Below are positions 955 through 50,394 of a stretch of DNA of 64,000 bases, piece by piece (position 1 is the stretch's first letter; the number at the start of each line of letters is the position of its first letter). The stretch spans positions 1-64,000 of the forward strand of contig JACQAO010000056.1 of assembly GCA_016194935.1 (NCBI GenBank), read 5' to 3'. The notes under the pieces were generated by a model. That model searched no databases. It was not told the origin of the DNA and saw only the letters and a list, made by a program, of their open reading frames with translations. The translations under genes were made by a program, and so were the position numbers. This DNA is from Betaproteobacteria bacterium. Lineage in GTDB: Bacteria; Pseudomonadota; Gammaproteobacteria; Burkholderiales; Rhodocyclaceae.

Positions 955-990
955 TGCGATTTCGCGATAACTTTGGAGATGGAGAGTCGT

Positions 991-1884
991 ATGTCCGCTA
1001 TGTCCGAGTTTAGGCTGGGGCCGTCAAATATTACCTATCTGGGTCGCGATTTGAGTCGCCCAGAGTGTATCGTCGCCGAAAAGAACGGCACTTTGTGGGT
1101 CTCGGACAATCGCGCAGCGGTGACCCGTGTGGATCCGGATGGCACCCAGACTCTGATCGGGACGATGGGCGGCAAGCCGAATGGGATGGCCATGGCTGGT
1201 GACGGAACCTTGTATCTCGCCAACATTGCGCACAGAAAATTCTACCGTCTCCACCGCGACGGTCGCCATGAGGTTCTTTTGGACGAGATCGACGGGCGTC
1301 CGGTCGGCGCCGCGAACTTTGTTCTCCGCGATCACAGAGACTGTCTCTGGCTATCGGTATCGACGGTCACCGACCCGCATCTGGACGCTCTGGAGCGGGA
1401 TATTCCAGATGGTTACGTGATTAAAATCGACGAACTGGGCGCGCGGTCGGTTGTGGGTGGTCTGTTGTTCACCAACGAAATCCGCATCAGCCCGGATGGG
1501 CGATTCCTTTATATGGCCGAGACGCGGGCCGGACGGATCTCGCGCGCCGAAATCCGTGCTGATGGAAGCCTGGGCTATCCGGAGCCATTTGGCCCAGACC
1601 CTCTCGACCTGGGGGCAAAGGTCGACGGAATCGCATTCGACTCGGAAGGCAACCTGTGGGTGACGGAAATCGCCGGCAATCGCTTGTATGTCATTGACTT
1701 GCAGGGTAAAGCGCATACGGTATTCGAAGATCCAGGCGGAGGCATTATCGACCATCCTTCCAGCCTGACGTTCGTCGGAGCGGATCTAAGGACAGTCTTG
1801 GTGGGGTCGCTCACCATGGATCGGATCGCCACTTTCCGCTCGCCGATACCCGGCCAGCCGATGCGTCATTGGTCGGACAATTGA
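991..1884 (+). CDS. SMP-30/gluconolactonase/LRE-family protein (putative lactonase)
   Basis: 297 residues from ATG 991, chosen because GGAGAG at 981-986 lies just upstream; a TTG at 973 or ATG at 979 would add a few residues. The protein is a six-bladed beta-propeller of the SMP-30 type. Visible repeats are GTLWVSDN, GKPNGMAMAGDGTLYLANI, ISPDGRFLYMAET and VDGIAFDSEGNLWVTEI. Glu25, Asn in GAANF and Asp in VDGIAFD are in the places of the metal ligands. Family members hydrolyse lactones in the periplasm or cytoplasm; no signal peptide is seen. It lies under the promoter at 903-954 and is followed by an aldehyde dehydrogenase gene. The substrate is unknown. Confidence 0.8.
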   Translation: MSAMSEFRLGPSNITYLGRDLSRPECIVAEKNGTLWVSDNRAAVTRVDPDGTQTLIGTMGGKPNGMAMAGDGTLYLANIAHRKFYRLHRDGRHEVLLDEIDGRPVGAANFVLRDHRDCLWLSVSTVTDPHLDALERDIPDGYVIKIDELGARSVVGGLLFTNEIRISPDGRFLYMAETRAGRISRAEIRADGSLGYPEPFGPDPLDLGAKVDGIAFDSEGNLWVTEIAGNRLYVIDLQGKAHTVFEDPGGGIIDHPSSLTFVGADLRTVLVGSLTMDRIATFRSPIPGQPMRHWSDN

Positions 1885-1996
1885 TGCGGTGGCGGCATTT
1901 TGGCACGCCGGTCGCTGAGGATGCGTCGTTGCAGTTTCTCGCCGGGACCGCGTACCAAGTTTTTTCACAGCGATTTAGAGGTTGGAGACGATTTTT

Positions 1997-3430
1997 ATGT
2001 ATGAAGATTTAGGGTTGTTTGTGGATGGGGTGTGGCTGCGCGGGGGTGGGCGCGATACTCGTCCCGTCTACGATCCCGCGACGGAGGAAGTTTTGGGGGT
2101 GCTGCCGCTGGCGACGGAGCAGGATCTGGGTGTCGCGCTTAGCGCCGCCTCACGCGCCTTCGAAACCTGGCGGACAACGTCGCCCAGCGAACGTGCCGCC
2201 ATCCTGAAGCGGGCAGCAAGTAATCTTCGGATGCGCTCGGTCGAGGTCGCCGAAAACCTGGTGAAAGAGCAGGGAAAGATCAAACGTGAGGCGGAGATCG
2301 AAGTTTCGGTTTCATCTGAAATTATCGAATGGTCAGCCGAAGAAGGGCGACGCCAATATGGGCGGATCATTCCGCCTAGATCTTCGGAATACCGGCAATC
2401 GGTAATTCACGAACCGGTTGGTGTCAGCGTGCTGATCACATCGTGGAATGTCCCGGTCTTATTTGCCGCACGAAAATTCAGCGAATGCTTGGCGGCAGGG
2501 TGTACGGCGATCATGATCGGATCAGAAAGTGCGCCGGCCTCGGCAATTGCCGTGATGCGGGCTCTGGAGGAAGCAGGACTTCCGCCGGGTGTTGCCAACC
2601 TGGTTTTTGGCGCGTCGCCGGATACTTCGCGTTTTCTGCTTTCGGCTCCCGTGGTGCGTAAGGTGTCGTTTACAGGCGGGACTGCAGGCGGCAAGGCGAT
2701 AATGAGGCTGGCCGCCGATTCCGTACTTACATCGACCATGGAACTCGGCGGCCATGCACCAGCGATCGTATTTGACGATGTCGACACCGATAAGGTGGCC
2801 ACGATCCTGGTGGCGAGCAAGTACCGGAATGCGGGGCAGGTCTGCAACTCACCGACCCGGTTCTTCGTCCACGAGGCCGTCTATAGCGATTTCGTCCGGT
2901 CCTTCGTAGCCCAAGCTAAAGCCATCCAGGTCGGTTCTGGCCTGGAGCGAGGCGTGCAGATGGGACCGCTTTCAAACAAGCGGCGCCTCTCTGCCATCGT
3001 CGAGATCGTCGCTGATGCAGTCGGCAAAGGCGCGCGCCTTTCCGCCGGCGGCGGCAGGATTGGAAACCGAGGATATTTCTACCAACCCACTGTGCTTGAA
3101 GAGATTCCAGCCGAGGCGAGGATATTGCATGAGGAACCGTTTGGCCCTGTGGCGGCAATGCTTCCTTTCTCAGATACCGATCAGATGATTGCCGACGCGA
3201 ATAGCCTGCCGTACGGGCTGGCGGCATATGCCTACACGAACAGTCTGCGAAACGTCAGCGCGGTCGAGGTAGGATTGAGGGTTGGTATGTTGGGAGTGAA
3301 CACCCCTCAGATATCGTTGCCCGAGACCCCTTTTGGCGGGTCCAAGGAAAGCGGGTTCGGTTCTGAAGGGGGCTCGGAGGGTGTCGCCAGCTATATGACG
3401 ACAAAATACGTTTCCCAGTTTGCGGCCTAA
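1997..3430 (+). CDS. NAD(P)-dependent aldehyde dehydrogenase
   Basis: 477 residues; ATG 1997 is preferred over a TTG at 1982 because GGAG at 1984-1987 is nine bases upstream. This is a full-length ALDH superfamily member oxidising an aldehyde to an acid. The general base Glu is at about residue 249 in MELGG, and the nucleophilic Cys at about 283 in GQVCNSP. EEPFGPV follows in the C-terminal half. The usual PWNFP motif reads SWNVP. It resembles vanillin/succinate-semialdehyde dehydrogenases, but the substrate cannot be inferred from sequence. It is probably co-transcribed with the lactonase gene 112 bp upstream. A 14-bp palindrome (AAGGTGCGCACCTT, 3468-3481) lies downstream. Confidence 0.9.
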   Translation: MYEDLGLFVDGVWLRGGGRDTRPVYDPATEEVLGVLPLATEQDLGVALSAASRAFETWRTTSPSERAAILKRAASNLRMRSVEVAENLVKEQGKIKREAEIEVSVSSEIIEWSAEEGRRQYGRIIPPRSSEYRQSVIHEPVGVSVLITSWNVPVLFAARKFSECLAAGCTAIMIGSESAPASAIAVMRALEEAGLPPGVANLVFGASPDTSRFLLSAPVVRKVSFTGGTAGGKAIMRLAADSVLTSTMELGGHAPAIVFDDVDTDKVATILVASKYRNAGQVCNSPTRFFVHEAVYSDFVRSFVAQAKAIQVGSGLERGVQMGPLSNKRRLSAIVEIVADAVGKGARLSAGGGRIGNRGYFYQPTVLEEIPAEARILHEEPFGPVAAMLPFSDTDQMIADANSLPYGLAAYAYTNSLRNVSAVEVGLRVGMLGVNTPQISLPETPFGGSKESGFGSEGGSEGVASYMTTKYVSQFAA

Positions 3431-5124: not shown

Positions 5125-5910
5125 TCAGATACCCTTTGTCATACCACCGTCGATGTCGATAGAAGCTCCGTGGATGAAGCTTGCTGCTTCAGAAACTAGA
5201 AATCCGATCAGTCCGGCAATATCGCCCGGGGTGCCTAGCCGCGTGATTTTGAGGTCTTCCAACAGGCGGGCGCTGGCTGACTCCTCGCTGTCTAGGCCTT
5301 CGCGCTCCGCAATCTCCGCAAGGTGACGCGCCAGTCGGCCCGTATCGATCCATCCAGGATTGACTGCGTTGACGCGGACCTTGTCCCTGCGCCCCAGTTC
5401 GGCGAGCGCCTTGTTCAGATTCGTGAGGGCGCCGCAAATCGTGCTGCCAATCATCGCCTGATCGCTGGGCGTGTGCGAGAGCGCGCCGACGATGTTGATG
5501 ACTTGTCCGTGGGCTCTGGCAAGATGCGGCCAAGCGGCGCGGGTCAGGCGGATTGTTCCATGGAACTTGAGCGCGAAGCCGTCGAGCCAGTCGTCGTCGT
5601 CCAGATCGAGCAACGAACCTCGGTGTGTTGCGCCGGCGTTGTTGATCAGAACGTCCAGGCGACCGTGATCCCGGACGACATCATCGATCAACCGGACGGC
5701 ACTGGCGGCATCCCGAAGGTCCACGATGTAGGGACTCGCGGCGCCGCCTCCGGCTTGGCTGATGGCTGTTGCCGTAGCCCGCAAATCCGCATCGCCGCGC
5801 GCTGCAATTGCCACGACAAAGCCGTCGCGGGCCAAGCGCTGCGCGATCGACTTGCCGATGCCGCGGCTGCCACCTGAAATAACCGCAACTTTGCCGGTGA
5901 CGCCTGTCAT
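5125..5910 (-). CDS. SDR-family protein lacking the canonical YxxxK catalytic pair
   Basis: 261 residues with a Rossmann fold. The cofactor motif GGSRGIG is at about residues 13-19, and NNAGATHRG and the C-terminal GASIDIDGG are present. Where classical SDRs have YxASKxAL, this protein reads IGSTICGAL, so the catalytic Tyr and Lys are replaced (Gly/Cys in my alignment). Ser remains in GALSHTPS. It may be a divergent oxidoreductase using other residues, or a non-redox partner. It lies 40 bp downstream of the BKACE gene in the same direction, consistent with one catabolic operon. Assignment as an SDR is firm; activity is open. Confidence 0.82.
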   Translation of the reverse strand: MTGVTGKVAVISGGSRGIGKSIAQRLARDGFVVAIAARGDADLRATATAISQAGGGAASPYIVDLRDAASAVRLIDDVVRDHGRLDVLINNAGATHRGSLLDLDDDDWLDGFALKFHGTIRLTRAAWPHLARAHGQVINIVGALSHTPSDQAMIGSTICGALTNLNKALAELGRRDKVRVNAVNPGWIDTGRLARHLAEIAEREGLDSEESASARLLEDLKITRLGTPGDIAGLIGFLVSEAASFIHGASIDIDGGMTKGI

Positions 5911-5950: not shown

Positions 5951-6889
5951 TTAAAATGCTACCGAATTTCCGCCCTTGAGGGCGAGAATGCCCCGCGCTT
6001 CGTCCGCAGAAGCGATTTCGAGGCCCAATCCCTCGATGATTTGCCGCACATTCTTAACCTGCGCGGCATTCGATTCGGCAAGCTTGCCGGCGCCGAGCCA
6101 CAACGAGTCTTCTAATCCGACGCGGACATTGCCGCCCATTGCCACAGCTTGCGCGGCGACCCGCATCTGGTGACGCCCGGCGCCAAGTACGGACCAGCGA
6201 AAATTGTCGGCGCCAAGTAACCGGTCAGCGGTGCGCTTCATGTGCACCACGTCCTCCGGATGTGCGCCGATGCCGCCAAGAAGACCGAAAACCGATTGAA
6301 CGAAGAACGGCGGTTTAACAATGCCGCGTTCGGCGAAATGCGTGAGCGTATAGAGATGCCCAATATCGTAGCACTCGATCTCGAAACGGGTGTCATTTTC
6401 AGCGCATGTGCGCAGGATGTATTCGATGTCGGCGAAGGTGTTCTTGAAGATACGGTCGCGCGAACCTTCGAGATAGGGTTTTTCCCAATCGTGCTTGAAC
6501 TCCTTGAAACGAGTGAGCATCGGGTAAAGACCGAAATTCATCGAACCCATGTTCAGCGAGGCGACCTCCGGCTTGAAGGTGGCGGCGGGGCGCACGCGCT
6601 CCTCGATCGCCATGGTCGGCGCACCCCCGGTGGTGATGTTGATGACGACATTGGAGCGCTGCTTGATCGTCTTCAGGAACGGCGCGAAGGCCTCCGGCGA
6701 TTGATCGGGACGGCCATCTATCGGGTTGCGCGCGTGCAAATGCACGATTGCTGCACCCGCTTCCGCAGCGCTGATGGCGGCATCGGCAATTTCTTCCGCT
6801 GTTACCGGGAGATGCGGCGACATTGACGGCGTGTGGATCGATCCGGTGACTGCGCAAGTGATGATGACCTTTCGATTGACTGCCTTCAA
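5951..6889 (-). CDS. Beta-keto acid cleavage enzyme (BKACE, DUF849)
   Basis: 312 residues, full length for the family. BKACE enzymes are Zn-dependent TIM barrels that condense a beta-keto acid with acetyl-CoA, giving acetoacetate and a CoA ester; Kce of lysine fermentation is the prototype. The metal ligands are visible as His50 and His52 in VHLHAR and Glu260 in VGLEDSLW. SLNMGSMNFG and the FGLLGGIGA loop are also typical. The start ATG overlaps the end of the DUF35 gene by 4 bases, indicating translational coupling. Acetoacetate produced here could be activated by the AacS encoded at 22483-24471. The acyl specificity is unknown. Confidence 0.9.
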   Translation of the reverse strand: MKAVNRKVIITCAVTGSIHTPSMSPHLPVTAEEIADAAISAAEAGAAIVHLHARNPIDGRPDQSPEAFAPFLKTIKQRSNVVINITTGGAPTMAIEERVRPAATFKPEVASLNMGSMNFGLYPMLTRFKEFKHDWEKPYLEGSRDRIFKNTFADIEYILRTCAENDTRFEIECYDIGHLYTLTHFAERGIVKPPFFVQSVFGLLGGIGAHPEDVVHMKRTADRLLGADNFRWSVLGAGRHQMRVAAQAVAMGGNVRVGLEDSLWLGAGKLAESNAAQVKNVRQIIEGLGLEIASADEARGILALKGGNSVAF

Positions 6890-7329
6890 TTGACTACTCC
6901 GTTGTGCGTGTTGGAGGATCCTCGGACGAACGGGCGAAAACGGGTAATCGCCGTACCCCGTTCGTGCTGTATGACAAGTTCCAGATCCTGATCGATCATC
7001 AATGTTTCCGGATCATCCACCTCAACGATATTGCTGATAAGCCTAGGACCCTCGATCAACTCGACGACGGCCACGGTATAGGGTAGACGATCAGCAAATG
7101 CCGGGTGAAAGGCGGTCTGGTATACGACCCAACTGATCAACTTGGCCGCGCCACTGGCGCGTCGCCATTCCCAGGCGTCAGAGAGGCAGTGGGGACACTC
7201 GGTGCGCGGAGGGAGCCGCGGTTTATCGCAAGACAGACACTCCTGAAAAACCAAATGTCTGGCATCGAGCGCAAGCCAGTAGTGTTCGTTGACGCCACTT
7301 CTGTCTGGAACCAAGATTTCGCCAGTCAT
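6886..7329 (-). CDS. DUF35 / Zn-ribbon OB-fold protein, partner of the thiolase-like protein
   Basis: 147 residues. A rubredoxin-like zinc ribbon (Cys31, Cys34, Cys45, Cys48 in CLSC and CPHC) precedes an OB-fold carrying SWVVYQTAFHPAF and PYTVAVVEL. DUF35 proteins bind acyl-CoA and form complexes with thiolase-fold enzymes; ChsH2-DUF35 with the aldolase Ltp2 is the studied case. The gene starts only 8 bp after the thiolase-like gene and overlaps the BKACE start, so a complex with the protein encoded by 7338-8462 is expected. Confidence 0.9.
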   Translation of the reverse strand: MTGEILVPDRSGVNEHYWLALDARHLVFQECLSCDKPRLPPRTECPHCLSDAWEWRRASGAAKLISWVVYQTAFHPAFADRLPYTVAVVELIEGPRLISNIVEVDDPETLMIDQDLELVIQHERGTAITRFRPFVRGSSNTHNGVVN

Positions 7330-7337
7330 TCAATCTC

Positions 7338-8462
7338 CTATTGTCCAAGTATGAGTGTTGAGTGGGTGTGCATAATTCCTCCCTGATTGGAAACGATGCA
7401 TGACCGTGCGTTTGGAACCTGGACTGCGGCGGCGCCGCGCATTTGCCGCACGCCCTCAATGACAAGCTGTAGCCCCGGCATGCCGGTTTCTGAAAGCAGA
7501 CCGCCGCTCGTGTTCATGGGCAGATCGCCGCCGATTTCGATGCGGCCATCTTCCACGAATCGTCCGCCTTCGCCTTTACGGCAGAATCCATAGTCCTCAA
7601 TCGTCATTAGTGCCGTGATGGTAAAGCAATCGTAGATCTGGGCTACATCAATATCTTTTGGCGCAATCCCAGCCATGGCAAATGCCGTTTTGGCGGAGAT
7701 CGCGGCGGCGGTCGCGGTTAGGTCAGGTCGCTGGGCGACTTCCCACGATGTCTGCCCCTGGCCGTAGCCTAGAATCGGTACCGGAGCCGAAACCTGCATC
7801 TGCTTGGCGCGTTTGGCGCTCATCAGAACTACGGCGGCACCCCCATCCGATACCAAACAGCAGTCGTCACGGCGTAGCGGAGCAACGATCATCTTTGATT
7901 GCCGATAATCGTCGAGGGTTATCTCTTTGCGTAGTTGAGCATTTGGATTTCTCGCTCCGTGTTTGCGGCAGGCGACAGCAATGGCGCCCAGTTGATCGGC
8001 AGTGGTGCCATACTGTCCCATGTGGCGGCGCGCGATCATGGCGTAGCCTGGCGGTACTCCGAACCAGCCATATACTTCGTCATGGCCCCATGCCTTCTGG
8101 TAGACATGACGCGTGCCGCTTTTTGGATTGTCGGCGAAGCAGACCACGGCAATTTCGCACTGCCCAGCGTCGATGGCCATCGCGGCGAACGAGATCAGAC
8201 TGATATTGGCGGCGCCGCCCTGATCCCAAACGCCGCCGATTCTCGGCTGGATGCCGAGCAACTCGGCAAGTTTCTGGCCGTACATGAACTCGAACCGCGA
8301 TGTCGGAAACTTGACAAACAGGCCGTCGACTTCGCTCTTGTCGACGCCGGTGTCGTTCAGCGCATTCCTGACCGCCTCGATATTCAGCGAATAGGTACTC
8401 CGATCCGGATGGTGTCCAAATGCGGTGTGGCCGATTCCAGCGATTACCACTGAGCCATGCAT
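7338..8462 (-). CDS. Thiolase-fold protein without thiolase Cys and His (putative acyl-CoA retro-aldolase)
   Basis: 374 residues from ATG 8462, which shares one base with the stop of the CoA transferase gene (TGATG); a longer frame starting at 8519 would overlap that gene by 58 bp. SCP-x/Ltp-type thiolase fold: VVIAGIGHTAFG, IYDCFTITALMTIEDYGFC, and GGLLSETG near the end. The position of the nucleophilic Cys reads QGGAA (residues 81-85). The catalytic GHP reads GMP (residues 327-329), and the C-terminal segment is SNQGG. Thiolytic cleavage is therefore unlikely. Cys-less members paired with DUF35, such as Ltp2, are retro-aldolases acting on 3-hydroxyacyl-CoA thioesters. Function by analogy only. 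Confidence 0.85.
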   Translation of the reverse strand: MHGSVVIAGIGHTAFGHHPDRSTYSLNIEAVRNALNDTGVDKSEVDGLFVKFPTSRFEFMYGQKLAELLGIQPRIGGVWDQGGAANISLISFAAMAIDAGQCEIAVVCFADNPKSGTRHVYQKAWGHDEVYGWFGVPPGYAMIARRHMGQYGTTADQLGAIAVACRKHGARNPNAQLRKEITLDDYRQSKMIVAPLRRDDCCLVSDGGAAVVLMSAKRAKQMQVSAPVPILGYGQGQTSWEVAQRPDLTATAAAISAKTAFAMAGIAPKDIDVAQIYDCFTITALMTIEDYGFCRKGEGGRFVEDGRIEIGGDLPMNTSGGLLSETGMPGLQLVIEGVRQMRGAAAVQVPNARSCIVSNQGGIMHTHSTLILGQ

Positions 8463-9664
8463 CAGATCACTTTTTCCTCTTCGAGCCGAGCCAACTCCGT
8501 TTCCGAGTATCCCAGCCATTCTCCATATATCTGGTGGTTGTCGCGCCCCAGCTCTCCACTAGGTTTCAGTTCTATTTGCTCTTCGCCGTCGAATCGGAGT
8601 GGCGATCTCGGCAGTACGACGCGTCCGTACATGGGGTGATCGACCCATTCCAGTGCGCCACGGGTGTGCATGTGATCGTCATTCACGACTTCATCGAGCG
8701 TGCGCACTGGCGCGCAGGGGACACGGCAATCACTGAGCAATGCGAACAATTCCTGCTTCGGATAATTTGCCGTGAATCCGGCGACGACTTCGTCGATTTC
8801 GTCGATGTGGTCGACACGCGACTTCAATGTGAGATAGCGAGAATCGTCCGCAAGCTTCTCGTTTCCCATCGCTTTCGTCAGGTTTCGCCAGTGAGCGTCA
8901 CTGACACAAATGATGGCGATGTAACCGTCCTGAGTCGGATAGACGTTGTAGGGAGCTTCCGCTAGTCCGGCATGGCGATTGCCTGTGCGCGGCGGAATTT
9001 TTCCACCGGAGCCGTAATACAGACCAAGGCTTGAACTGAGCGATGCGTAAACAGCTTCTTGCATGGAGACTTCGACCAAGCGACCGGTGCCGGTGACGGT
9101 GCGTTCATACAGTGCCGCCACAAGCGCCCCAAAGAGATGCACTCCACCGAAAAAATCACAGATCGCCGGCCCTGCCTTGACCGGAGGGCTATCCGGAAAG
9201 CCGGTAGTACTCATTACTCCGGACATGGCCTGGACCGTCAGGTCCATGGCCAGATATCCGGCTTTCGGGCCGGATCGTCCGTATCCAGAGCCCGCCGCGT
9301 AAATGAGACGAGGATTCCGCTGCTTCAGGACGTCGTAGCCCAAGCCAAGCTTCTCCATGGTACTCGGCGCGTAGTTCTCAACCACCACATCGCCGCGCTT
9401 CACCATTTCAAGGAAAATCTCGCGGCCCCGCACCGACTTTAGATTCAGCGACACCATGCGCTTGTTCGAGTTCAGCATGGCGAAGGGGAGGGCGGCACCG
9501 CCCACAACGCTGCGACGTCTTAACGGATCGCCGGTCGGCGGTTCAATTTTAATGACGTTTGCACCGGCCATCGCCATGAGGAACGTACAATACGGGCCGT
9601 TGTAGATCTGCCCGAGGTCGATGACGGTGATCCCGTCAAGGGGTTTTCCAGAGAACTCGCTCAT
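8462..9664 (-). CDS. CaiB/BaiF family (class III) CoA transferase
   Basis: 400 residues, full length. The N-terminus GITVIDLGQIYNGPYCT and the glycine-rich segment IYAAGSGYGRSGP are typical of the family, and the catalytic Asp is Asp141 in MDLTVQAMSG. These enzymes move CoA between carboxylic acids through an aspartyl-CoA intermediate in the cytoplasm. Here it would activate the acid made by the oxidative genes of the island. It is third in the leftward operon, starting 3 bp after the enoyl-CoA hydratase gene and sharing one base with the thiolase-like gene. Confidence 0.92.
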   Translation of the reverse strand: MSEFSGKPLDGITVIDLGQIYNGPYCTFLMAMAGANVIKIEPPTGDPLRRRSVVGGAALPFAMLNSNKRMVSLNLKSVRGREIFLEMVKRGDVVVENYAPSTMEKLGLGYDVLKQRNPRLIYAAGSGYGRSGPKAGYLAMDLTVQAMSGVMSTTGFPDSPPVKAGPAICDFFGGVHLFGALVAALYERTVTGTGRLVEVSMQEAVYASLSSSLGLYYGSGGKIPPRTGNRHAGLAEAPYNVYPTQDGYIAIICVSDAHWRNLTKAMGNEKLADDSRYLTLKSRVDHIDEIDEVVAGFTANYPKQELFALLSDCRVPCAPVRTLDEVVNDDHMHTRGALEWVDHPMYGRVVLPRSPLRFDGEEQIELKPSGELGRDNHQIYGEWLGYSETELARLEEEKVI

Positions 9665-9667
9665 CGT

Positions 9668-10441
9668 CTATCGTCCTTGAAATTGCGCGGGACGTTTCTC
9701 GCGGAACGCGCTGACCCCTTCGCGCGCATCCTCGCTGAATTGAAGAAGGCGATTGGTCAACTGTTCGGCGCGGAGTCCGGTCGCCAGATCCATGTCACGA
9801 CTTCGCAGCGCCAGCTCCTTGCTTGCCTGCACTGCCAGCGGAGCATTTTCGGTGATCCTGCTGGCGTATCCTATCGCAGTGTCCATCAATCGGTCCATCG
9901 GCACCATGGCATTGATCAGTCCCCATCTGGCCGCAGTGGGCGCGTCAATCGTTCCACCCGTCAGTAGCATTTCCATCGCGATCACATGTGGCAACTGTGC
10001 CATGATCCGCTGGGTTCCGCCATTGGCGGCGATTACCCCGCGCTTGACCTCGGTGAATGAGAATGTCGCGTGATCGGCTGCGACGCGGATATCGGTTGCC
10101 ATCAGCAAGGTCATGCCACCACCGAGGCAGTAGCCATTGACTGCCGCGATGATCGGTTTCCACACTTCAAGGCCCCGGTTGAGCAGAGGATCCCGTTGCG
10201 TCAGCCACGTTTCCGAAAGTTCGGCAGGATGGCCGACAAAACTCTTAATGTCGGCGCCGGCGGTAAACGCGCGATCACCAGCGCCAGTTACGATTGCGAC
10301 CCGGATCGATGGATCGTCGCGGACCTGGATCCACGCTTCGGACAGCAGACGATAGTGCTCATGGTCCATGGCATTCATGCGTTCCGGTCGGTTGATGGTG
10401 ACCGTGGCGATGCCGTTGCCGGTTGTTAGATCGATGCTCAT
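9668..10441 (-). CDS. Enoyl-CoA hydratase/isomerase (crotonase) family protein
   Basis: 257 residues of the crotonase fold: INRPERMNAMD, the oxyanion-hole motif AGADIKSF, and GYCLGGGMTLLMATDIR. The second catalytic Glu of hydratases is present (Glu131 in TEVKRG). The first, normally in GGGxE, is Thr111. Many crotonases keep only one Glu, so hydration is possible but another acyl-CoA reaction (isomerisation, hydrolysis) cannot be excluded. It sits between the acyl-CoA dehydrogenase gene (1-bp gap) and the CoA transferase gene (3-bp gap), which argues that it hydrates the enoyl-CoA from the dehydrogenase. Confidence 0.9.
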   Translation of the reverse strand: MSIDLTTGNGIATVTINRPERMNAMDHEHYRLLSEAWIQVRDDPSIRVAIVTGAGDRAFTAGADIKSFVGHPAELSETWLTQRDPLLNRGLEVWKPIIAAVNGYCLGGGMTLLMATDIRVAADHATFSFTEVKRGVIAANGGTQRIMAQLPHVIAMEMLLTGGTIDAPTAARWGLINAMVPMDRLMDTAIGYASRITENAPLAVQASKELALRSRDMDLATGLRAEQLTNRLLQFSEDAREGVSAFREKRPAQFQGR

Positions 10442-10442
10442 G

Positions 10443-11621
10443 TTATGCTGCTTTGAGCCGTGTTCCCAGCAGGTCGCGGGCGATCACCATGCGGTGGACT
10501 TCGGACGGCCCCTCGCCTATGCGTTTGATACGCAATTCGCGATACCAGCGCTCCAATGGCATCTCTGCGGCAACGCCCATTCCACCCAATATCTGGATGC
10601 ACCGGTCAACCACGCGACCAGCAGTCTCCGTGCCATGGAGTTTGCAAACCGACGCGTCAATCTTGACGTCATGACCGAGATCGGCACGAGAGGCGGCCTG
10701 ATAGACGAGCAGCCGCGCCGCCCGTAATTCGACCTCGGAATCCGCGACCATCCACTGGATTGCCTGGCGATCAGCGAGAGGTTGGCCAAAAGTCTTGCGC
10801 TCCCGGGCCCAGGCGAGCGCAAGATCCAGCGCCGCTTGTGCGACACCGATCGTACCTGCGGCATAAGGCATGCGTTCATGTACTAGCCAGCTCTCGGCCA
10901 ACTTGAAACCTTCTCCCTCTTCTCCCAGGCGGTCTTCGACCGGAACCTCGTAGTCCTGGAAGTTGAGTTCGTAGGGCGAGTACGAGCGGATCACTCGAAT
11001 GGGGCTGATCGTCAGACCGGGGCGGTCAATCTCCACTATAAAGCTGGTGATTCCGGCGCGCCCTTTGTCCGGACCGGTACGTGCGAACAGGATACCCCAC
11101 CTGGACTGACCCGCACCGGTGATCCATAGCTTCGTTCCATTAATCACATAGCGGTCGCCTTTGCGCTCAGCGCGAGTCGTGATGGCGCGCGCCGGATCCG
11201 CGCCGCCGCCGGGTTCGCTGATTGCGACGAACGTCTTCTCGCCGGTTTCCACCGTTGGCAGTGCGTATTTTTCAATCTGCTCGCGAGACCCCTTGAATAT
11301 TACGTTCGGAGGATCGAAGCCGAAAGCGCCGCAAGCAGCGATATAAGCACCCATTCGGCATTTCGCGGCCTCCTCGGCGACGACGCATTGACCAAGCAGG
11401 CTGAGGCCGGCTCCCCCATACTCGGCGGGGGTCTGCACATTCCACAGCCCGGCGCCCCGCGCTTTGACGCGTAATGCGGCCAAGACGTCGTCGGGTAGAG
11501 TGTAAGCATCGTACGGCGCTTTGTCCTCAGCAGGACGCACCTCCCGTTCCATAAACCTGCGAACCGTCTCTTGGAGCATCTTGAGTTCGTCCGGCAAATC
11601 GTAGAATCCCGTTTCGTTCAT
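10443..11621 (-). CDS. Acyl-CoA dehydrogenase
   Basis: 392 residues, the usual length of homotetrameric acyl-CoA dehydrogenases. FAD/substrate motifs are visible: FVAISEPGGGADPARAITT, LWITGAGQS, and a C-terminal QILGGMG with the catalytic Glu at about residue 370 in GEGPSEVHR. It introduces the alpha,beta double bond into an acyl-CoA and passes electrons to ETF; no etf genes are in the window. It is the first gene of the leftward operon 11621-5125, under the promoter at 11787-11815. The substrate is unknown. Confidence 0.93.
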   Translation of the reverse strand: MNETGFYDLPDELKMLQETVRRFMEREVRPAEDKAPYDAYTLPDDVLAALRVKARGAGLWNVQTPAEYGGAGLSLLGQCVVAEEAAKCRMGAYIAACGAFGFDPPNVIFKGSREQIEKYALPTVETGEKTFVAISEPGGGADPARAITTRAERKGDRYVINGTKLWITGAGQSRWGILFARTGPDKGRAGITSFIVEIDRPGLTISPIRVIRSYSPYELNFQDYEVPVEDRLGEEGEGFKLAESWLVHERMPYAAGTIGVAQAALDLALAWARERKTFGQPLADRQAIQWMVADSEVELRAARLLVYQAASRADLGHDVKIDASVCKLHGTETAGRVVDRCIQILGGMGVAAEMPLERWYRELRIKRIGEGPSEVHRMVIARDLLGTRLKAA

Positions 11622-11893: not shown

Positions 11894-11947
11894 TGCGGGA
11901 CATCCCCATTAAAGTCGAAAGTCAAAGATCTCGTGGAGACCAATCCA

Positions 11948-12841
11948 GTGACTACAGAAGATATCCAGCCGATCATCCAGTCCCGTACCCAGGCGCCGGC
12001 CATTTATCGCGTTCGCATCGGGAGTTTTGAGATCACGGTACTTTCAGATGGCTACCTGGACGCCGATCCAAATCTATTTTCCGCCGGGGGCGACGTGCTG
12101 GCGCAACTGACCGACGAGGCGTTTCTCAGTCGGACTCCGTTCCGCTTAGGGACCGTCGCCTACGTCGTGAACACCGGACGCCGGTTGATCCTGATCGACG
12201 CCGGCTGCGGGCCGCTGTTCGGACCTACTTCCGGGTTTCTACTCGCCAACATGCGCACTGCCGGCATCGCGCCGGAGCAGATAAGTTCGGTGCTCATTAC
12301 TCACATGCACGCTGATCATGTGGGCGGGCTCCTGACCGAGGGGCAGGCAACATTCCCGAATGCCGAGATCGTGATTCACTCCGCCGAACTCGATTACTAT
12401 ATGAGCGACCTGGCGCTTAGCCGCGCCACTGAGCGAACGCGTCCTTGGATTCTGCGGGCGCGCCGGGTGCCAGAACACTATCCGGGTATACGGTTCTTTG
12501 ACCGCGACGGCGAAGTCTCACCGGGTATTTCCGCTTGCGTGCTTGCAGGACACACGCCAGGACATACTGGCTACATCATCGATTCCGACAACAATCAACT
12601 GTTCGTCTCCGGTGATATTGTCTACTCGCCGGTCTACAGTTTCAAATACCTGGACTACGATTTCCCCTTCAGCGTCGATCACGTTGCCGCAGAACAGTCC
12701 CGGCGGCGCGCGCTCGACATGATCGCCGCCGAGAGGTGGCTAATGACTGGCTCCCATCTGCCGTTTCCGGCGCTCGGCCACGTACGAAAAATGGGCAGCG
12801 CCTACGAGTATGTTCCCGACGAGTGGCGCTTCGAGGTGTAG
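11948..12841 (+). CDS. MBL-fold metallo-hydrolase (lactonase/esterase type)
   Basis: 297 residues from GTG 11948, which has GGAG at 11935-11938 nine bases upstream; GTG 11933 is an alternative. The binuclear metal site is complete: THMHADHVGG, then AGHTPGHTG, then SGDIVYSP. The overall layout, with an N-terminal ITVLSDGYLDADPN, is that of AHL-lactonase/methyl-parathion-hydrolase-like enzymes, which hydrolyse lactones or esters. No signal peptide is seen. It is divergent from the acyl-CoA operon and convergent with the GMC oxidoreductase gene. Within this island it more likely opens a catabolic lactone than a quorum signal. Confidence 0.87.
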   Translation: MTTEDIQPIIQSRTQAPAIYRVRIGSFEITVLSDGYLDADPNLFSAGGDVLAQLTDEAFLSRTPFRLGTVAYVVNTGRRLILIDAGCGPLFGPTSGFLLANMRTAGIAPEQISSVLITHMHADHVGGLLTEGQATFPNAEIVIHSAELDYYMSDLALSRATERTRPWILRARRVPEHYPGIRFFDRDGEVSPGISACVLAGHTPGHTGYIIDSDNNQLFVSGDIVYSPVYSFKYLDYDFPFSVDHVAAEQSRRRALDMIAAERWLMTGSHLPFPALGHVRKMGSAYEYVPDEWRFEV

Positions 12842-12884: not shown

Positions 12885-14516
12885 TCAGACATCAGCGGGA
12901 AGCAAGGCCGGACGGCCAAGGATGAGGTCCGCCGCCTTTTCGGCGATCATCATGACTGCCGCGTTAGTGTTACCGCCGATCAAGTCTGGCATCACTGACG
13001 CGTCGACAACGCGCAAGTTGTCGACGCCGCGAACACGGAGTTCGGACGTGACAACAGCCCCTGGATCGCCGCCCATGCGGCAAGTACCAACCGGATGAAA
13101 TATGGTGTTAGCCTCAGCGCGAATGAACGCCCTGATTTCGTCATCATTCGCAACGGCGTTGCCCGGCGTCAGCTCGCGGCGCCAGTGTGGCGTCATTCCT
13201 GGATGGATGGCCAAGCGCCGAACCAGCCTGACTGATCTCACCAGTGTTTCCATATCTGCCTCGACCGCCAAGTGGTTGTGCAGAATAAGTGGCGGATGAC
13301 GCGGATCGGGCGAAGTCAATTTGACACTGCCGCGACTCACAGGGCGTAGCAGGCACGCCACAAAACCGAATCCATCGATTGCTGGACGCTTCAAGTGTGG
13401 AAACCAGGGGTGCGCACCGGGATGGAACAGCCTAAAGATTATCTGCAAGTCTGGTAGCGGGACGTGCGGTAGGCTGCGGACAAACAAGTTCGCGGTGGAG
13501 AGGGGCTCGGTGGCCGGTCCGGATCGCAGAAAGAGGGCTCTCGCCATGTTGAAGGCAAGGCGGTCGAGCCTGAGATTCCGGTGCATGGCGGAAGGCTCCG
13601 TGCGCTCGTATTCAATTGCAACCCGGATGTGGTCTTGAAGATTCACGCCGACGCCGGGTACGTCGAGCACAGGATCAATCCCAAGCCTCTTCAACTGTTC
13701 GATTGGTCCTACCCCAGAGAGCATGAGCAAATGGGGCGTGTTGTATGCGCCAGCCGCGAGCAAGACCTCTTTGCCCGCCCACACCCTAAACACCGTGCCG
13801 TTGGCCTCGTACTCGACGCCAACGGCCTTGCGTCCCTCGAATAAAATCCGCCTGACATGTGCGCCGGTGCATAGGCTCATGTTGGGGCGCCGCAAGGCCG
13901 GGCGAAGGAAGCAGGAAGCGCTGCCCTGACGTCGCCCTTTGCCAATGCTGAACTGAGCTAACCCAAGGCCCTCCTGCTGGGCGCCGTTGTAGTCGTCGGT
14001 ATGCAGGACGCCTGTCGATCTGACCGCGTCCGCCAGCGCCGTGTAAAGCGGCCCTCCATGTGGCGCAGACTGGGTTAGCATCGGACCTGAACCGCCGCGA
14101 TAGCGATCCTCCCCACCAAGGAAGGTCTCGGATCTTCTGAAATACGGCAGAACCTCCGCATAGGACCATCCCGGCAAGCCGGAGCAATCCCACCGATCGA
14201 AGTCGCCGCGATGCCCGCGCACGTAAGCCATCATGTTAATGGAAGAGCTACCGCCCAAGACCTTGCCGCGGGGCAGCCGGAGTCGGCGAGAATCGAGGTG
14301 CGGCTCAGGCTCAGAGGTATAAGGCCAGTTGAAGCGCGGGGCGTTCCAAACTTCGCCGACGCCAAGCGGAATGTGGAGCAGCCAGTCGCGATCACTTGGC
14401 CCCGCCTCAAGGAGGAGAACGCGGCGCCGTGGATCGGCGCTCAGCCGATTGGCAAGGATGCAACCGGCAGTTCCCGAGCCAACGATGATGTAATCGAACC
14501 AACTCTTGCCGGTCAT
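12885..14516 (-). CDS. GMC-family FAD oxidoreductase (choline/alcohol dehydrogenase type)
   Basis: 543 residues. The FAD-binding dinucleotide fold starts with DYIIVGSGTAGC and LLLEAGPSD. GMC signature 1 lies around PRGKVLGGSSSIN and signature 2 around GAYNTPHLLMLSGVG. The active-site pair is His474 in IFHPVGT and Asn518 in GGNTNAA. Such enzymes (for example AlkJ) oxidise alcohols to aldehydes, often at the inner membrane. It is last in a leftward group after the serine hydrolase and flavin-reductase-like genes, and would feed the ALDH encoded at 1997-3430. Confidence 0.92.
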   Translation of the reverse strand: MTGKSWFDYIIVGSGTAGCILANRLSADPRRRVLLLEAGPSDRDWLLHIPLGVGEVWNAPRFNWPYTSEPEPHLDSRRLRLPRGKVLGGSSSINMMAYVRGHRGDFDRWDCSGLPGWSYAEVLPYFRRSETFLGGEDRYRGGSGPMLTQSAPHGGPLYTALADAVRSTGVLHTDDYNGAQQEGLGLAQFSIGKGRRQGSASCFLRPALRRPNMSLCTGAHVRRILFEGRKAVGVEYEANGTVFRVWAGKEVLLAAGAYNTPHLLMLSGVGPIEQLKRLGIDPVLDVPGVGVNLQDHIRVAIEYERTEPSAMHRNLRLDRLAFNMARALFLRSGPATEPLSTANLFVRSLPHVPLPDLQIIFRLFHPGAHPWFPHLKRPAIDGFGFVACLLRPVSRGSVKLTSPDPRHPPLILHNHLAVEADMETLVRSVRLVRRLAIHPGMTPHWRRELTPGNAVANDDEIRAFIRAEANTIFHPVGTCRMGGDPGAVVTSELRVRGVDNLRVVDASVMPDLIGGNTNAAVMMIAEKAADLILGRPALLPADV

Positions 14517-14537: not shown

Positions 14538-15161
14538 TCAGCCGCCGCTAGGCTGTCTTACCAAATAATCCATGCGCGGCATGGTGATGATTTCACCAAG
14601 AGTCGCGTAGATTGGCCCTCCCAATCGCGCGATTGGGTTCAGTTCGGATGTCGTGATCTTGCCGTCCTTCACCAGACCGTCACGAATATAAAAGCGCTGG
14701 ACTTCGCCTATCATCAGTCGATTCGGCTCCCGACCGAACTCGATGCAATCGTGCAATACACATTCGAGGCTCACGGGTGCTGCGGCGATTCGAGGCGGTT
14801 TCACAGTAACGCTGTCGCGCGTCTCGAGTCCTAGAATCTCGATTTCGCTGACATCGGGGGGGAACTCGGTCGCACTGGCGTGAAGTGCCTGAAGTAAAGG
14901 CTGATCGGCAATATTCACGACGAACTCGCCGGTATCTAGGATGTTGCGCCCGGTATCCTTAATGACCCCTTTCTTTAACCCGATGCTGATGGCAACCATC
15001 GGCGGGTCGTGGGAAACAAAGCTAAAGGCCGAAAATGGGGCAAGGTTGACGACACCGGTTTTAGACAGAGTCGTTACCCACGCAATCGGCCGCGGAACGA
15101 CAATCCCGGTCATCAGTTTGTAAGCCTGCACCATGGTCAGTCCGGCTGCGTCGATCTCCAT
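14538..15161 (-). CDS. Flavin reductase-like (FMN-binding split barrel) protein
   Basis: 207 residues from ATG 15161, chosen because AGAGGAA stands six bases upstream; a longer frame begins at 15197. Split-barrel flavin-binding family (flavoredoxin/HpaC type): GIVVPRPIAWVTTLS, VNLAPFSAFSFVSHDPPM and NILDTGEFVVNI are visible. It either reduces free FMN for a partner monooxygenase or uses bound flavin itself. No flavin monooxygenase is adjacent; the only candidate in the window is the luciferase-like protein encoded at 62255-63223. It lies 21 bp upstream of the GMC gene. Confidence 0.85.
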   Translation of the reverse strand: MEIDAAGLTMVQAYKLMTGIVVPRPIAWVTTLSKTGVVNLAPFSAFSFVSHDPPMVAISIGLKKGVIKDTGRNILDTGEFVVNIADQPLLQALHASATEFPPDVSEIEILGLETRDSVTVKPPRIAAAPVSLECVLHDCIEFGREPNRLMIGEVQRFYIRDGLVKDGKITTSELNPIARLGGPIYATLGEIITMPRMDYLVRQPSGG

Positions 15162-15218
15162 GTCAAGTTCCTCTTTCACTAGATTGCGGTTCGACAAGCG
15201 TCTTCGCTGCTTCGGCGT

Positions 15219-16379
15219 TCACTCGGTGATCGATCCATGGACGATGTCGGACAATTTCTGGAAGCGCAGATGACTGTCGATCTGATCCATCAGTCCGCTC
15301 GTAAGGCAGACAAAAGATATCTCGGATTTCGGGTCCACCCAGAATACCGTCGAGCCAGCGCCGATGCCGCCGAAGGTCGAGGGCGACGCAAGCGTTCCGA
15401 AGGGGGCGGGAAAGTAGACCCCCTCGCCACGCAAAAAGAATCCGAGTCCGAGATAGGCCGGATAGGTATCCCAACCGCGCATTTCCATCTGTGCCGCCAA
15501 GGTGTTGTTCGGCATCATGCCGGTGTGGTTTCTAGTCGCCAGGCGAAGCGATGCGGGCGAAACAATGGCTGCGCCGTCCAGTGTTCCTCCGAGACGCAGC
15601 ATCTCAGCAAAGCGATGCATGTCGGCGAGTGTCGAAAACGCGCCACCGCCAGGAAGCTCCGTTTCAGCGGTGACCGTGCGATCGCGAGACTCGAGCTGCC
15701 GGTTCATCTCGGTCGGGTTACGAGCGACCACCGGTACCCGGTAGGGCGCGAGATCGTTGCGCAGTCCGATGGCGGTGCGGGTCATTCCGAGCGGCGCAAG
15801 GATATCGCGGGCTATGACGTCGCGATAACGGCTGTCGGGTCCGTCGAGCCGCCTAATCACCTCGCCTAACATGTCGTAGGAGATGCGGGCGCTGTAGCTG
15901 ACCGATTCACCCGGGCGATTGACAGGGGAGATCGCGCAGATCGCGGCCACTGTCGACGCCAGATCGCCGATCCTGTCCGCCGGAAGGTTTGGCAGCAAGA
16001 ATGGCATGCCGCCGGTGTGGCTCAGCAACTGCGCGATCGTAATGCGGTGCTTGCCGAGTATTCCGAACTCGGGGATTATTGCGCAAACCGGCGTGTTCAG
16101 GGCAAGGTCGCCCCGTTCTATGGCCCGAAAAATGGCTACAGCGGTCATCGGCTTGGTCAAGGACATAACAGAAAAGACGCTGCCCTGATCGATCGCGGTG
16201 CCAGTGGCACGCTCGGCAAACCCGAATACGGCGTCCACTGCGACGATGCCGCGCCGGGCGACACGAATCGCGATGCCGTCACAGCGCCCGGCGGCGAGAT
16301 CGCGCTCGATCGCTCTCGAAAGCCGCCCCACCACAGCCGGGTCCATTCCCGCCGTGACAGGATCGTAGCTATTCATCAT
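15219..16379 (-). CDS. Serine hydrolase, beta-lactamase class C / EstB family
   Basis: 386 residues. The SxxK motif is Ser73-Leu-Thr-Lys76 after QGSVFSVM. The second motif position reads YSA rather than YSN. GGIGAGSTVFWVDP takes the place of the C-terminal Gly-rich motif of EstB-type esterases. Family members hydrolyse short-chain esters or peptides. No clear signal peptide is seen, suggesting a cytoplasmic esterase. It is the first gene of the leftward group that continues with the flavin-reductase-like and GMC genes. ATG 16379 is followed directly by a second ATG at 16376. Confidence 0.85.
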   Translation of the reverse strand: MMNSYDPVTAGMDPAVVGRLSRAIERDLAAGRCDGIAIRVARRGIVAVDAVFGFAERATGTAIDQGSVFSVMSLTKPMTAVAIFRAIERGDLALNTPVCAIIPEFGILGKHRITIAQLLSHTGGMPFLLPNLPADRIGDLASTVAAICAISPVNRPGESVSYSARISYDMLGEVIRRLDGPDSRYRDVIARDILAPLGMTRTAIGLRNDLAPYRVPVVARNPTEMNRQLESRDRTVTAETELPGGGAFSTLADMHRFAEMLRLGGTLDGAAIVSPASLRLATRNHTGMMPNNTLAAQMEMRGWDTYPAYLGLGFFLRGEGVYFPAPFGTLASPSTFGGIGAGSTVFWVDPKSEISFVCLTSGLMDQIDSHLRFQKLSDIVHGSITE

Positions 16380-16652: not shown

Positions 16653-16757
16653 ATGAAGTTGCGAAAAAACAAGAAGCTTCATCTCGGTGAAGAGTGGCGT
16701 CAGGCGACAGGCGAAGTCCTGATGCGTACGCAGTGTGCTGGAGATATCTCATGCTGA
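16653..16757 (+). CDS. Small leader ORF overlapping the ABC ATPase start
   Basis: 34 codons beginning at ATG 16653 behind a strong ribosome site (GGAGGAG, 16643-16649). It ends at TGA 16755-16757, seven bases into the downstream ATPase gene. The product is basic at its start (MKLRKNKK) and resembles no family I know. The overlap suggests translational coupling or a leader peptide for the transporter operon. A chance ORF is possible, but its ribosome site is better than that of the ATPase gene itself. Confidence 0.45.
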   Translation: MKLRKNKKLHLGEEWRQATGEVLMRTQCAGDISC

Positions 16758-17932
16758 CTTTGGAGGGACTTCACAAGACTTATCCACCCACCGATCCCAG
16801 TCAGGGCGCAGGCAAGACCGCGCCGGCGTTGAGAGGCGTATCGATTACCGTTGAGAAGGGCGAGTTCTACACCCTGCTCGGACCAAGCGGCTGCGGAAAA
16901 ACTACGATGCTTCAGTGTATCGCCGGTCTGGAAACACCCGATTCAGGTGATATCACGATGTGCGGCGAGGTCGTGTTCAGCAGTGCACGGAATATTTTTG
17001 TTCCCGCGAGCAAGCGACGGCTTGGGATGGTGTTTCAGTCCTACGCGATCTGGCCGCATATGACGGTTTTCGAGAATGTCGCCTTTCCGCTACGGCAAGG
17101 AGGCAAAGGGCTCTCGAAACAGGTATTGGGCGATAGAGTGATGGCCGCCCTTGACAGGGTGAAGCTGCGCGATTTCGCCAATCGGCCGGCTCCCTATCTG
17201 TCAGGCGGGCAACAGCAGCGCGTCGCCTTGGCACGCGCGCTGGTTGGTGAGCCGCGCGTGATTCTTCTGGACGAGCCGTTGAGCAATCTTGACGCGAAGC
17301 TTCGTGACGAAATGCGAGTCGAACTGCGTGATCTGGTCAAGTCCCTGGGAATAACGACGATCTACGTGACGCATGATCAGGTCGAGGCTCTTTCCATGTC
17401 CGACCGCATCGCGCTTATGAAAGACGGGAAAGTAATACAGGAGGGTACGCCCGCCGATTTATATATGCGGCCCAAGACGGCGTTCGCGTCCGAATTTGTC
17501 GGGCGCAGCAATCTCATTCCCGGAAAAGTAGTCAACGGTTCTGCGGATAGTGATTATGGAACCGTCGCCGTTCAGTTCGGCGACATTCGATGTCGATTAC
17601 CTGATGGCGTTGCTGTCGGCGAGAGTGTCAACGTCATGGTGCGCCCCCACGGTATTGATGTGAACGGACAGGCGGACGAGATCAATCGGTTCGCCGGTCG
17701 GGTACGAGGAACAAGTTTTGTCGGCGAATTTCTCGACATCTGTGTCGATCTGAAAGGTTGTTCCCTTCGCGTCTATGCCAGTCCGTACGATGCGATCACG
17801 ACAGGTCAGGAAGTCGCCCTGAGTTTTCCGCCGGATCGCTGCGTTGTTCTCTTGCCGGACGAAGCAGCTATTAGTGGGGAGGGTGGGCGATACAGCCAAT
17901 CGCTCGAACAACCAAGTCATAGGAGCGACTAG
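16751..17932 (+). CDS. ABC transporter ATP-binding protein (Fe3+/putrescine-type importer, with TOBE domain)
   Basis: 393 residues from ATG 16751, with GGAGA about seven bases upstream; the frame stays open further upstream but without a better site. ATPase motifs in order: Walker A GPSGCGKT (44-51), Q-loop VFQSYAIWPHMTVFENV, signature LSGGQQQRVALARAL, Walker B VILLDEPLSNLD, and switch VTHD. The C-terminal third is a TOBE-type regulatory domain, as in FbpC/PotA. It energises the permease encoded by the next gene, two bases downstream. No binding-protein gene is nearby. Substrate unknown. Confidence 0.92.
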   Translation: MLTLEGLHKTYPPTDPSQGAGKTAPALRGVSITVEKGEFYTLLGPSGCGKTTMLQCIAGLETPDSGDITMCGEVVFSSARNIFVPASKRRLGMVFQSYAIWPHMTVFENVAFPLRQGGKGLSKQVLGDRVMAALDRVKLRDFANRPAPYLSGGQQQRVALARALVGEPRVILLDEPLSNLDAKLRDEMRVELRDLVKSLGITTIYVTHDQVEALSMSDRIALMKDGKVIQEGTPADLYMRPKTAFASEFVGRSNLIPGKVVNGSADSDYGTVAVQFGDIRCRLPDGVAVGESVNVMVRPHGIDVNGQADEINRFAGRVRGTSFVGEFLDICVDLKGCSLRVYASPYDAITTGQEVALSFPPDRCVVLLPDEAAISGEGGRYSQSLEQPSHRSD

Positions 17933-17934
17933 CG

Positions 17935-22049: not shown

Positions 22050-22463
22050 ATGGATCATCCGCACAAACTGGTTTTCACGCTCCGCATCCCCATCCGCTGG
22101 GGCGATATGGATGCCATGGGCCATGTCAACAACACCGTTTATTTTCGTTATGCAGAGCAGGCGCGCATCGAGTGGATTGAGTCGCTGGGCTTTCCTGCAC
22201 GGCAAGAACACGATCAATCGCCGGTGATTGTGAACGCCAGTTGCACATTCCTGATTCCCCTGACCTATCCCGGCACAGTAGAGGTTCGCACGTACACCGG
22301 CAGTGCCGGACGCAGCAGCCTGCCGACTTTCTTCGACCTGCGACCGCTCGGCGATGATCGGGTGCATGCCGAAGGCGCGGCCAAGATCGTGTGGACCAAC
22401 CCCGCCAGCGGCAAGTCGATACCCCTGCCCGACGTCATGCGCCGCTTGGCGGCGGATCAATAA
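22050..22463 (+). CDS. 4-hydroxybenzoyl-CoA-thioesterase-like (hotdog) acyl-CoA thioesterase
   Basis: 137 residues. The hotdog-fold motif [28 protein letters not shown] carries the catalytic Asp of the 4HBT/YbgC family. The enzyme hydrolyses an acyl-CoA to free acid and CoA in the cytoplasm. The next gene, acetoacetyl-CoA synthetase, starts 19 bp downstream, so the two are probably co-transcribed and may balance CoA ester pools. The ATG has no strong Shine-Dalgarno sequence. Confidence 0.88.
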
Positions 22464-22482
22464 AATTTCCAGGAGACCGCCA

Positions 22483-50388: not shown

Positions 50389-50394
50389 GGCCGC

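Follow-up and report, generated by a model that had tools for sequence, protein, structure and literature searches.

A thiolase-fold protein lacking the nucleophilic cysteine and its DUF35 partner as a putative acyl-CoA retro-aldolase in a Rhodocyclaceae operon

The gene pair and its operon

The window (the whole stretch of DNA analysed, 64,000 nucleotides, positions 1 to 64,000 of contig JACQAO010000056.1 in assembly GCA_016194935.1) comes from a betaproteobacterium of the Rhodocyclaceae. On its minus strand, the gene for a thiolase-fold protein (7338..8462), a putative acyl-coenzyme A (CoA) retro-aldolase subunit, is followed by the gene for a DUF35 protein (6886..7329). The intergenic gap is 8 bp (7330-7337), as given in a sequence-only reading of this DNA. 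Translation from the ATG at 8462 yields a thiolase-fold protein of 374 residues (the listed open reading frame, or ORF, begins at 8519), which matches Pfam Thiolase_C_1 (3.7e-54) and Thiolase_N (2e-07). Its partner of 147 residues combines a zinc ribbon with an OB fold (zf-ChsH2 5.7e-10 and OB_ChsH2_C 7.9e-15, both over cut-off), is most similar among PDB sequences to ChsH2(DUF35) (6ok1_B, 3.2e-18) and is modelled by AlphaFold2 with a predicted local distance difference test score (pLDDT) of 92.3.

Conservation was assessed in a family of 57 sequences, namely the window protein and those of 56 loci with at least 50% identity (53 of 57 pattern-found loci and three plasmid loci). The pattern-found loci were chosen by six peptide patterns from the window protein, NQGGIMHT being one of them and YDCF not; the plasmid members (L061-L063) were found without such patterns. 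The DUF35 gene adjoins the thiolase-fold gene in 56 of 56 family loci, and a four-cysteine zinc ribbon, CX2CX10CX2C, is present in 55 of the 57 family DUF35s. Ltp2 and Sal are described as binding the DUF35 domain of a hydratase (PMC11321319). By analogy, the thiolase-fold subunit and DUF35 are expected to assemble as a 2:2 complex.

The order of transcription on the minus strand is acyl-CoA dehydrogenase, hydratase, CoA-transferase, thiolase-fold protein, DUF35, beta-keto acid cleavage enzyme (BKACE) and short-chain dehydrogenase/reductase (SDR). The dehydrogenase (10443..11621; Acyl-CoA_dh_1 3.6e-50) keeps Glu370 in 43 of 43 sequences. The enoyl-CoA hydratase of the crotonase family (9668..10441; ECH_1 3.1e-61), the proposed source of 3-hydroxyacyl-CoA, keeps Glu131 in 50 of 50 and Glu157 in 49 of 50, and the CaiB-type (family III) CoA-transferase (8462..9664; CoA_transf_3 9e-113) keeps Asp141 in 49 of 50, with one gap. 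We take these four residues to be catalytic. Downstream of DUF35 lie the BKACE (5951..6889; PF05853 2.9e-110; NF053538 546.7 bits versus a cut-off of 430) and the SDR oxidoreductase (5125..5910; adh_short_C2 3.7e-43).

The upstream partners recur widely. Among the 45 family loci with at least 3.7 kb of upstream sequence, a hydratase gene lies upstream on the same strand in all 45 (within 3.7 kb in 44, at 4.2 kb in L061), an acyl-CoA dehydrogenase gene in 40 and a CoA-transferase gene in 41, the last being downstream in L062; the three stand together in 39. An operon that would dehydrogenate and hydrate an acyl-CoA before splitting it, as the sequence-only reading had it, is in keeping with these partners.

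Active-site residues and known aldolases

The sequence-only reading had described the protein as lacking the nucleophilic cysteine, the GHP histidine and the C-terminal cysteine of thiolases. All three absences hold. In an alignment of 66 rows, which includes CtSal, Ltp2, four Cys-bearing thiolases (from Pyrococcus, Methanothermococcus, zebrafish and the window genome itself, the last an SCP-type protein on contig C29) and distant homologues, the nucleophile is replaced by Gly83 (8214..8216, within QGGAA, residues 81-85). This residue is Gly in 55 of the 55 family sequences reaching the position and corresponds to Gly89 of CtSal and Gly83 of Ltp2; the four thiolases have Cys. Where thiolases carry the GHP loop, the protein reads ETGMP (residues 325-329; 7476..7490), with GMP at 327-329, an invariant Glu325 and Gly327 where Ltp2 has Tyr344. 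Since no His occurs at residues 322-332 in any of the 57 sequences, the loss of the loop histidine holds under any alignment of the loop. The C-terminal loop, SNQGG, is free of Cys, although a Cys355 on the preceding strand is present in 49 of 57.

The description ‘Cys-less’ is correct for the nucleophile and fails for the active site. The motif QIYDCFT (residues 275-281, with YDCF at 277-280) has Tyr in place of the His of the thiolase HD(C/A)F motif and, two positions further, a Cys. This Tyr277-Asp278-Cys279 stretch (7626..7634), a proposed base/acid pair, aligns with Tyr302/Cys304 of CtSal and is found in 57 of 57 family sequences. As to a Cys or His elsewhere in the active site, on which the sequence-only reading had made its proposal depend, no loop histidine is present, and Cys279 sits at the proton-donor position of CtSal. 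In the latter enzyme, almost no activity remains in the Y302F variant, and none could be detected in C304A, C304S or C304H. The proposed roles are those of base for Tyr302 and of proton donor for Cys304; according to the authors, CtSal, with Gly at the position of the nucleophilic Cys, is incapable of thiolysis (PMC12329534).

Nine residues (Y277, D278, C279, E325, G327, Q360, G362, H365 and H367) are the same in all 57 sequences. Gly362 aligns with Gly391 of CtSal. The family-specific stretch SNQGGIMHTH (358-367; 7362..7391), beside the oxyanion-hole glycine, contributes Q360, H365 and H367; in the same alignment, His365 and His367 have no counterparts in CtSal and Ltp2. Pairwise identity goes down to 49% in an aligned subset of 39 family members, and the family extends over three phyla, Pseudomonadota, Actinomycetota and Vulcanimicrobiota; the conserved pattern is therefore not due to chance. 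A non-catalytic CoA-binding or scaffold protein, as the loss of the thiolase Cys and His might suggest, is very improbable given the invariance of Y277, D278, C279 and G362 at such divergence.

A PDB sequence search with the thiolase-fold protein gave 4u4e, Ltp2 and CtSal as best matches, the first on top; with the PRK06158 model (NF004811) the protein scores 354.8 bits, below the cut-off of 421. Its AlphaFold2 model (38 sequences) has a mean pLDDT of 87.9 and a predicted template modelling score of 0.91. The low-confidence segments 113-116 and 123-134 coincide with a loop that is disordered in CtSal and Ltp2 (PMC12329534), a coincidence counted in favour of an aldolase. Foldseek places 4u4e and Ltp2 on top, and VIA-align 2 gives Z scores of 51.3 for CtSal 9myr (364 residues, 2.4 Å), 51.2 for Ltp2 6ok1, 49.7 for the Pyrococcus thiolase and 49.5 for TbSLP. 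As thiolases score nearly as high as aldolases, fold comparison was rejected as proof of the chemistry.

Comparison with characterized systems refines the assignment. With CtSal-ShyDUF35, the bile-acid aldolase of Comamonas testosteroni (9myr), the window protein shares the thiolase fold, Gly for Cys, the Tyr/Cys pair, the absence of the loop His and a DUF35 partner: G83/Y277/C279 correspond to G89/Y302/C304, unlike in the four Cys/His thiolases. It differs in that the CtSal loop is three residues longer and that DUF35 is there part of a fusion with a MaoC hydratase and has a C3H1 zinc site, whereas the window has a stand-alone C4 DUF35 and a crotonase. With TcLtp2-ChsH2DUF35 (6ok1) it shares the fold, Gly83, the Tyr of YDHF (Tyr294, equivalent to Tyr277), the C4 DUF35 and the loop length after GG; nine residues, counted by eye, separate GG from the next helix in both proteins. 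It has Cys279 and Gly327, however, where TcLtp2 has His296 and Tyr344, and the equal loop length makes the latter position clear. The acid of Ltp2, the model chosen by the sequence-only reading, is Tyr344 (PMC12329534), which is Gly327 in the window protein; CtSal is therefore the closer mechanistic model. As aligned, the active site combines a Sal-type pair with a loop of Ltp2 length.

Three further systems are instructive. The 4u4e/PRK06158 group keeps Gly and Tyr and has YDSF or YDAF for YDCF, plus a loop His. TbSLP has the YDCF motif and no DUF35 partner (PMC12329534); it is eukaryotic and ∼25% identical to the window protein. IpfD/IpfE of ibuprofen degradation provide a non-steroid retro-aldolase step giving propionyl-CoA, with the ipfDE product called a thiolase; the substrate there is a dihydrodiol made by a dioxygenase, and the likeness drawn here is one of the described step (PMC9195938).

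Phylogeny and proposed reaction

A tree was computed from 48 of the 66 alignment rows (15 family rows were thinned out and 3 repeats or distant rows omitted), with one Sal included. A 100/100 branch has the four Cys-bearing thiolases on one side and, on the other, 44 proteins of the Gly/Tyr type or related to it; among these 44, L074 has FDG for YDC, and long branches leave several placements unsure. The window family forms a 100/100 clade of 24 rows. In the approximately unbiased (AU) test, joining the family to CtSal gives p 0.064, to the Ltp2 group p 0.116 and to the 4u4e group p 0.030. Clustering with true thiolases, which the sequence-only reading had named as counting against it, is thus absent insofar as the four thiolases stand in a clade of their own, but a topology in which the family branches off first beside them is not rejected (p-AU 0.287). 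The family may hence branch first beyond the thiolases, which speaks against a strong claim of a place inside the aldolase clade. This placement, like the near-equal Z scores within the thiolase fold, would suit a thiolase using another nucleophile. Such an enzyme is nevertheless extremely unlikely, given Gly83 in all sequences reaching it, no loop His and Tyr277 in 57 of 57, in a genome whose matches include two other, Cys-bearing thiolases (on C29 and C25).

Residues, their conservation, the predicted fold, the partner genes and the intact catalytic residues of those partners were established directly. Together, the Sal-like G/Y/C pattern, the universal Tyr and Cys, the constant DUF35 gene and the hydratase upstream in every locus with sufficient upstream sequence suggest that the thiolase-fold protein and DUF35 probably constitute a heteromeric acyl-CoA retro-aldolase cleaving 3-hydroxyacyl-CoA. 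The proposal of an aldolytic rather than thiolytic cleavage is thereby upheld by inference, on the match to the CtSal triad and the absent loop histidine.

From complex formation through the reaction, its direction and its product to the later steps, we infer the following course. The CoA-transferase would activate an acid, and the acyl-CoA dehydrogenase and the crotonase would turn the acyl-CoA into 3-hydroxyacyl-CoA. The thiolase-fold subunit with DUF35 would then break the C2-C3 bond without free CoA: Tyr277 would take the proton of the 3-hydroxyl, an aldehyde or ketone would depart, and Cys279 would protonate the enolate to give acetyl-CoA or a homologue.

Several observations weigh against this assignment. 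The fold alone is not discriminating (thiolase 7yvy reaches Z 49.7), and the free tree does not put the family with Sal or Ltp2; the topology that sets the family beside the thiolases, which the AU test did not reject, belongs here as well. Three CtSal residues proposed to tune Cys304 or hold the oxyanion, Gln347, Gln352 and Gln161, are Leu322, Glu325 and Val136 in the window protein by an alignment that is uncertain in the loop, and the CoA-contacting Arg216 of CtSal is Lys190, a position that varies within the family. Asp replaces Cys279, with the Tyr kept, in the distant homologues L053, L054, L055 and L058. An SDR gene lies within 3.5 kb in 15 of the 30 loci with at least 8 kb on both sides, so that many of these might produce a ketoacyl-CoA. 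Finally, an aldehyde dehydrogenase (ALDH) gene is present in only 4 of 56 loci and, at the threshold used, in none of the other 52 (33 of the 56 have at least 6 kb on both sides). The four homologues just mentioned, ∼36% identical to the window protein and outside the family count, form a further Gly/Tyr group with YDD for YDC and a longer loop.

The oxidoreductases next to the core deserve closer attention. In the 30 long-flank loci, a 3HCDH-type dehydrogenase was found in one (L040), and 10 lack any SDR within 8 kb. Since the SDR profile derives from SDRs of these loci and the 3HCDH search started from two own-genome seeds, both counts may miss distant relatives. A hydratase without a dedicated dehydrogenase fits an aldolase and is not decisive because of the nearby SDRs; as these occur in half of the long-flank loci, the missing dehydrogenase was weakened as a proof. 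The same SDRs are compatible with another enolate chemistry, either decarboxylation of a beta-carboxyacyl-CoA or hydrolytic cleavage of an SDR-made ketoacyl-CoA. TbSLP, which shares YDCF, slowly decarboxylates malonyl-CoA (PMC12329534), and the family has invariant residues of its own (E325, H365 and H367). In the same paper, however, CtSal showed no decarboxylation of malonyl-CoA, and the most constant upstream partner is the hydratase, the SDRs not being constant. Another enolate chemistry is therefore rather unlikely, and retro-aldol cleavage is the preferred reading.

The window-type island, distribution and substrate

In the window, the core operon is embedded in an island whose gene content recurs in near-identical order in four loci, those of Flavimaribacter (L014), the Proteobacteria bin RHODO2 (L016), Pararhodobacter (L017) and Devosia (L025). 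The shared set comprises the ABC (ATP-binding cassette) transporter, beta-lactamase-family hydrolase, flavin reductase, GMC (glucose-methanol-choline) oxidoreductase, metallo-beta-lactamase-fold hydrolase, core, BKACE, SDR, SMP-30 protein and ALDH. On the plus strand lie the SMP-30/gluconolactonase-like protein (973..1884; SGL 1.5e-23), the ALDH (1982..3430; Aldedh 8.1e-141), the metallo-beta-lactamase-fold hydrolase (11933..12841; Lactamase_B 2.6e-20) and the ATPase and permease of the transporter (16694..19683; BPD_transp_1 2.3e-15), the last two at 60% identity or more in the four loci; polyamine-type models match the ATPase, all below their cut-offs. The minus strand carries the GMC oxidoreductase (12885..14516; GMC_oxred_N 4.3e-51), the flavin-reductase-like protein (14538..15197; Flavin_Reduct 2e-24; 60-63% identity in the four loci) and the beta-lactamase-family serine hydrolase (15219..16379; PF00144 6.1e-56). 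An amidase-signature gene of the island (3558-4988) was found in none of 63 related loci scanned.

The pairing of a BKACE with a retro-aldolase, which the sequence-only reading knew from no described pathway, is not peculiar to this operon. The window BKACE is the sole BKACE found in the genome assembly; of the 56 family loci, 4, those of the four related islands, have a BKACE immediately next to the core, and three more (L009, L052 and L059) have one at a distance of 7 to 10 kb. In the remaining 49, many with short flanks, none was seen. The suggested uptake of the product by the ALDH could apply to a part of the family: at 54-56% identity the enzyme was found only in the four BKACE-adjacent loci. 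In the other 52 loci, the product may therefore be a ketone or be oxidised elsewhere.

In the Sal pathway, an aldehyde product is oxidised by an ALDH (PMC11321319), and in the window-type island the neighbouring ALDH would be a possible acceptor of the carbonyl product, if this is an aldehyde. If the oxidation gives a beta-keto acid, this and acetyl-CoA would be the substrates of BKACE, which would form acetoacetate and a new acyl-CoA, the reaction given for the triacetate BKACE (PMC10470551). This chain from aldehyde to beta-keto acid and acetoacetate is a proposal, and acetoacetate made by BKACE could be recovered by an acetoacetate-CoA ligase (22402..24471, plus strand; TIGR01217 937.9 bits versus a cut-off of 520.9), a candidate island member. 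In a wider and more tentative proposal, possible though on balance doubtful, the clade would be a general non-steroid retro-aldolase replacing the dehydrogenase and thiolase steps of beta-oxidation by cleavage directly after hydration, with one branch feeding an ALDH-BKACE module that would take the aldehyde through a beta-keto acid to acetoacetate and a shorter acyl-CoA.

The direction of the reaction can be argued from the same neighbours. Aldol reactions are reversible, and the thiolase fold includes enzymes that form C-C bonds, such as PhlC (fold match 5m3k); the pair could thus condense the enolate of an acyl-CoA with an aldehyde or ketone as part of a biosynthetic route. The neighbourhood looks catabolic, however, with its CoA-transferase, dehydrogenase, hydratase, transporters, BKACE and ALDH, and a forward aldol reaction in vivo is unlikely. 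Cleavage remains the preferred direction.

In a sample of 150 Rhodocyclaceae genomes including that of the window, matches at E 1e-60 occur in 20. The 19 besides the window genome reach at most 44% identity among the matches listed, and the three same-genus genomes of the sample have no match at this threshold. The third match of the window genome, on contig C25, also reads as a Cys-bearing thiolase. Given these sparse, diverged matches and their absence from the same-genus genomes, the operon looks accessory, perhaps a transferred catabolic island; the base composition of its region does not stand out. Three plasmid members are labelled acetyl-CoA acetyltransferase or thiolase in their records. 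On a Hydrogenophaga plasmid (L062:14983-19324), two distinct thiolase/DUF35 pairs, of YDCF and YDAF types, stand in one gene run between IS1071 copies.

If the assignment is correct, such labels give the wrong reaction for a family spanning three phyla, and the aldolytic shortening of acyl-CoA is a wider catabolic step than steroids and ibuprofen. Retro-aldolases of the thiolase-fold/DUF35 kind have already been described in steroid breakdown, and ibuprofen degradation has a retro-aldolase step involving ipfDE (PMC9195938). In the literature searched, outside which most subscription journals lie, no publication on the window clade or on an aldolase-BKACE operon was found among the matches listed. 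The Sal-type pair offers a direct mutational test, and the clade would, on the same assumption, supply stand-alone aldolase pairs for C-C bond chemistry.

Clues to the substrate diverge. A steroid-like substrate may be considered for the window pair: among NCBIfam models, the hydratase best matches EchA19 (248.7 bits, below the cut-off of 400), presumably a mycobacterial cholesterol gene. The only steroid model searched, NF009473 (PRK12835), which we take to be a 3-ketosteroid delta-1-dehydrogenase, reached at best 29.7 bits versus 837 in the 90%-complete assembly. NF053538, matched by the window BKACE, names a 3,5-dioxohexanoate enzyme. The Glu14 position of Kce (PMC10470551) is, by our own reading, Ile18 in the window BKACE. 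The name given by NF053538 was rejected as a substrate clue because of BKACE relatives in 572 plasmid records. The 30 long-flank loci carry HyuA in 17, HyuB in 17, a branched-chain-type binding protein in 18 and AtuA in 10. The nearest models of HyuAB are caprolactamase alpha (513.1 bits) and beta (292.4 bits), far below the 1000-bit cut-offs. This setting suggests a substrate entry different from that of the window type, with its lactonase-like, GMC, ALDH and BKACE genes. Literature on the HyuAB/AtuA gene set gave no further lead, although a paper on caprolactam degradation was among those listed. A lactam, a lactone and a 3,5-dioxygenated acid were weighed as candidates; the neighbourhoods point in different ways, and none is preferred.

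A few gene runs complete the picture. At L007:2874-20031 (Burkholderiales) and similar loci, the core lies between caprolactamase-like HyuAB, a branched-chain-type ABC transporter and AtuA. In the window itself, ORFs read by eye form an apparent phenylacetate (paa) cluster at 49097-54199, ending in a PaaK-like ligase, and a second CaiB-type CoA-transferase-like ORF, likewise read by eye, is found near the window end at 58433-59686.

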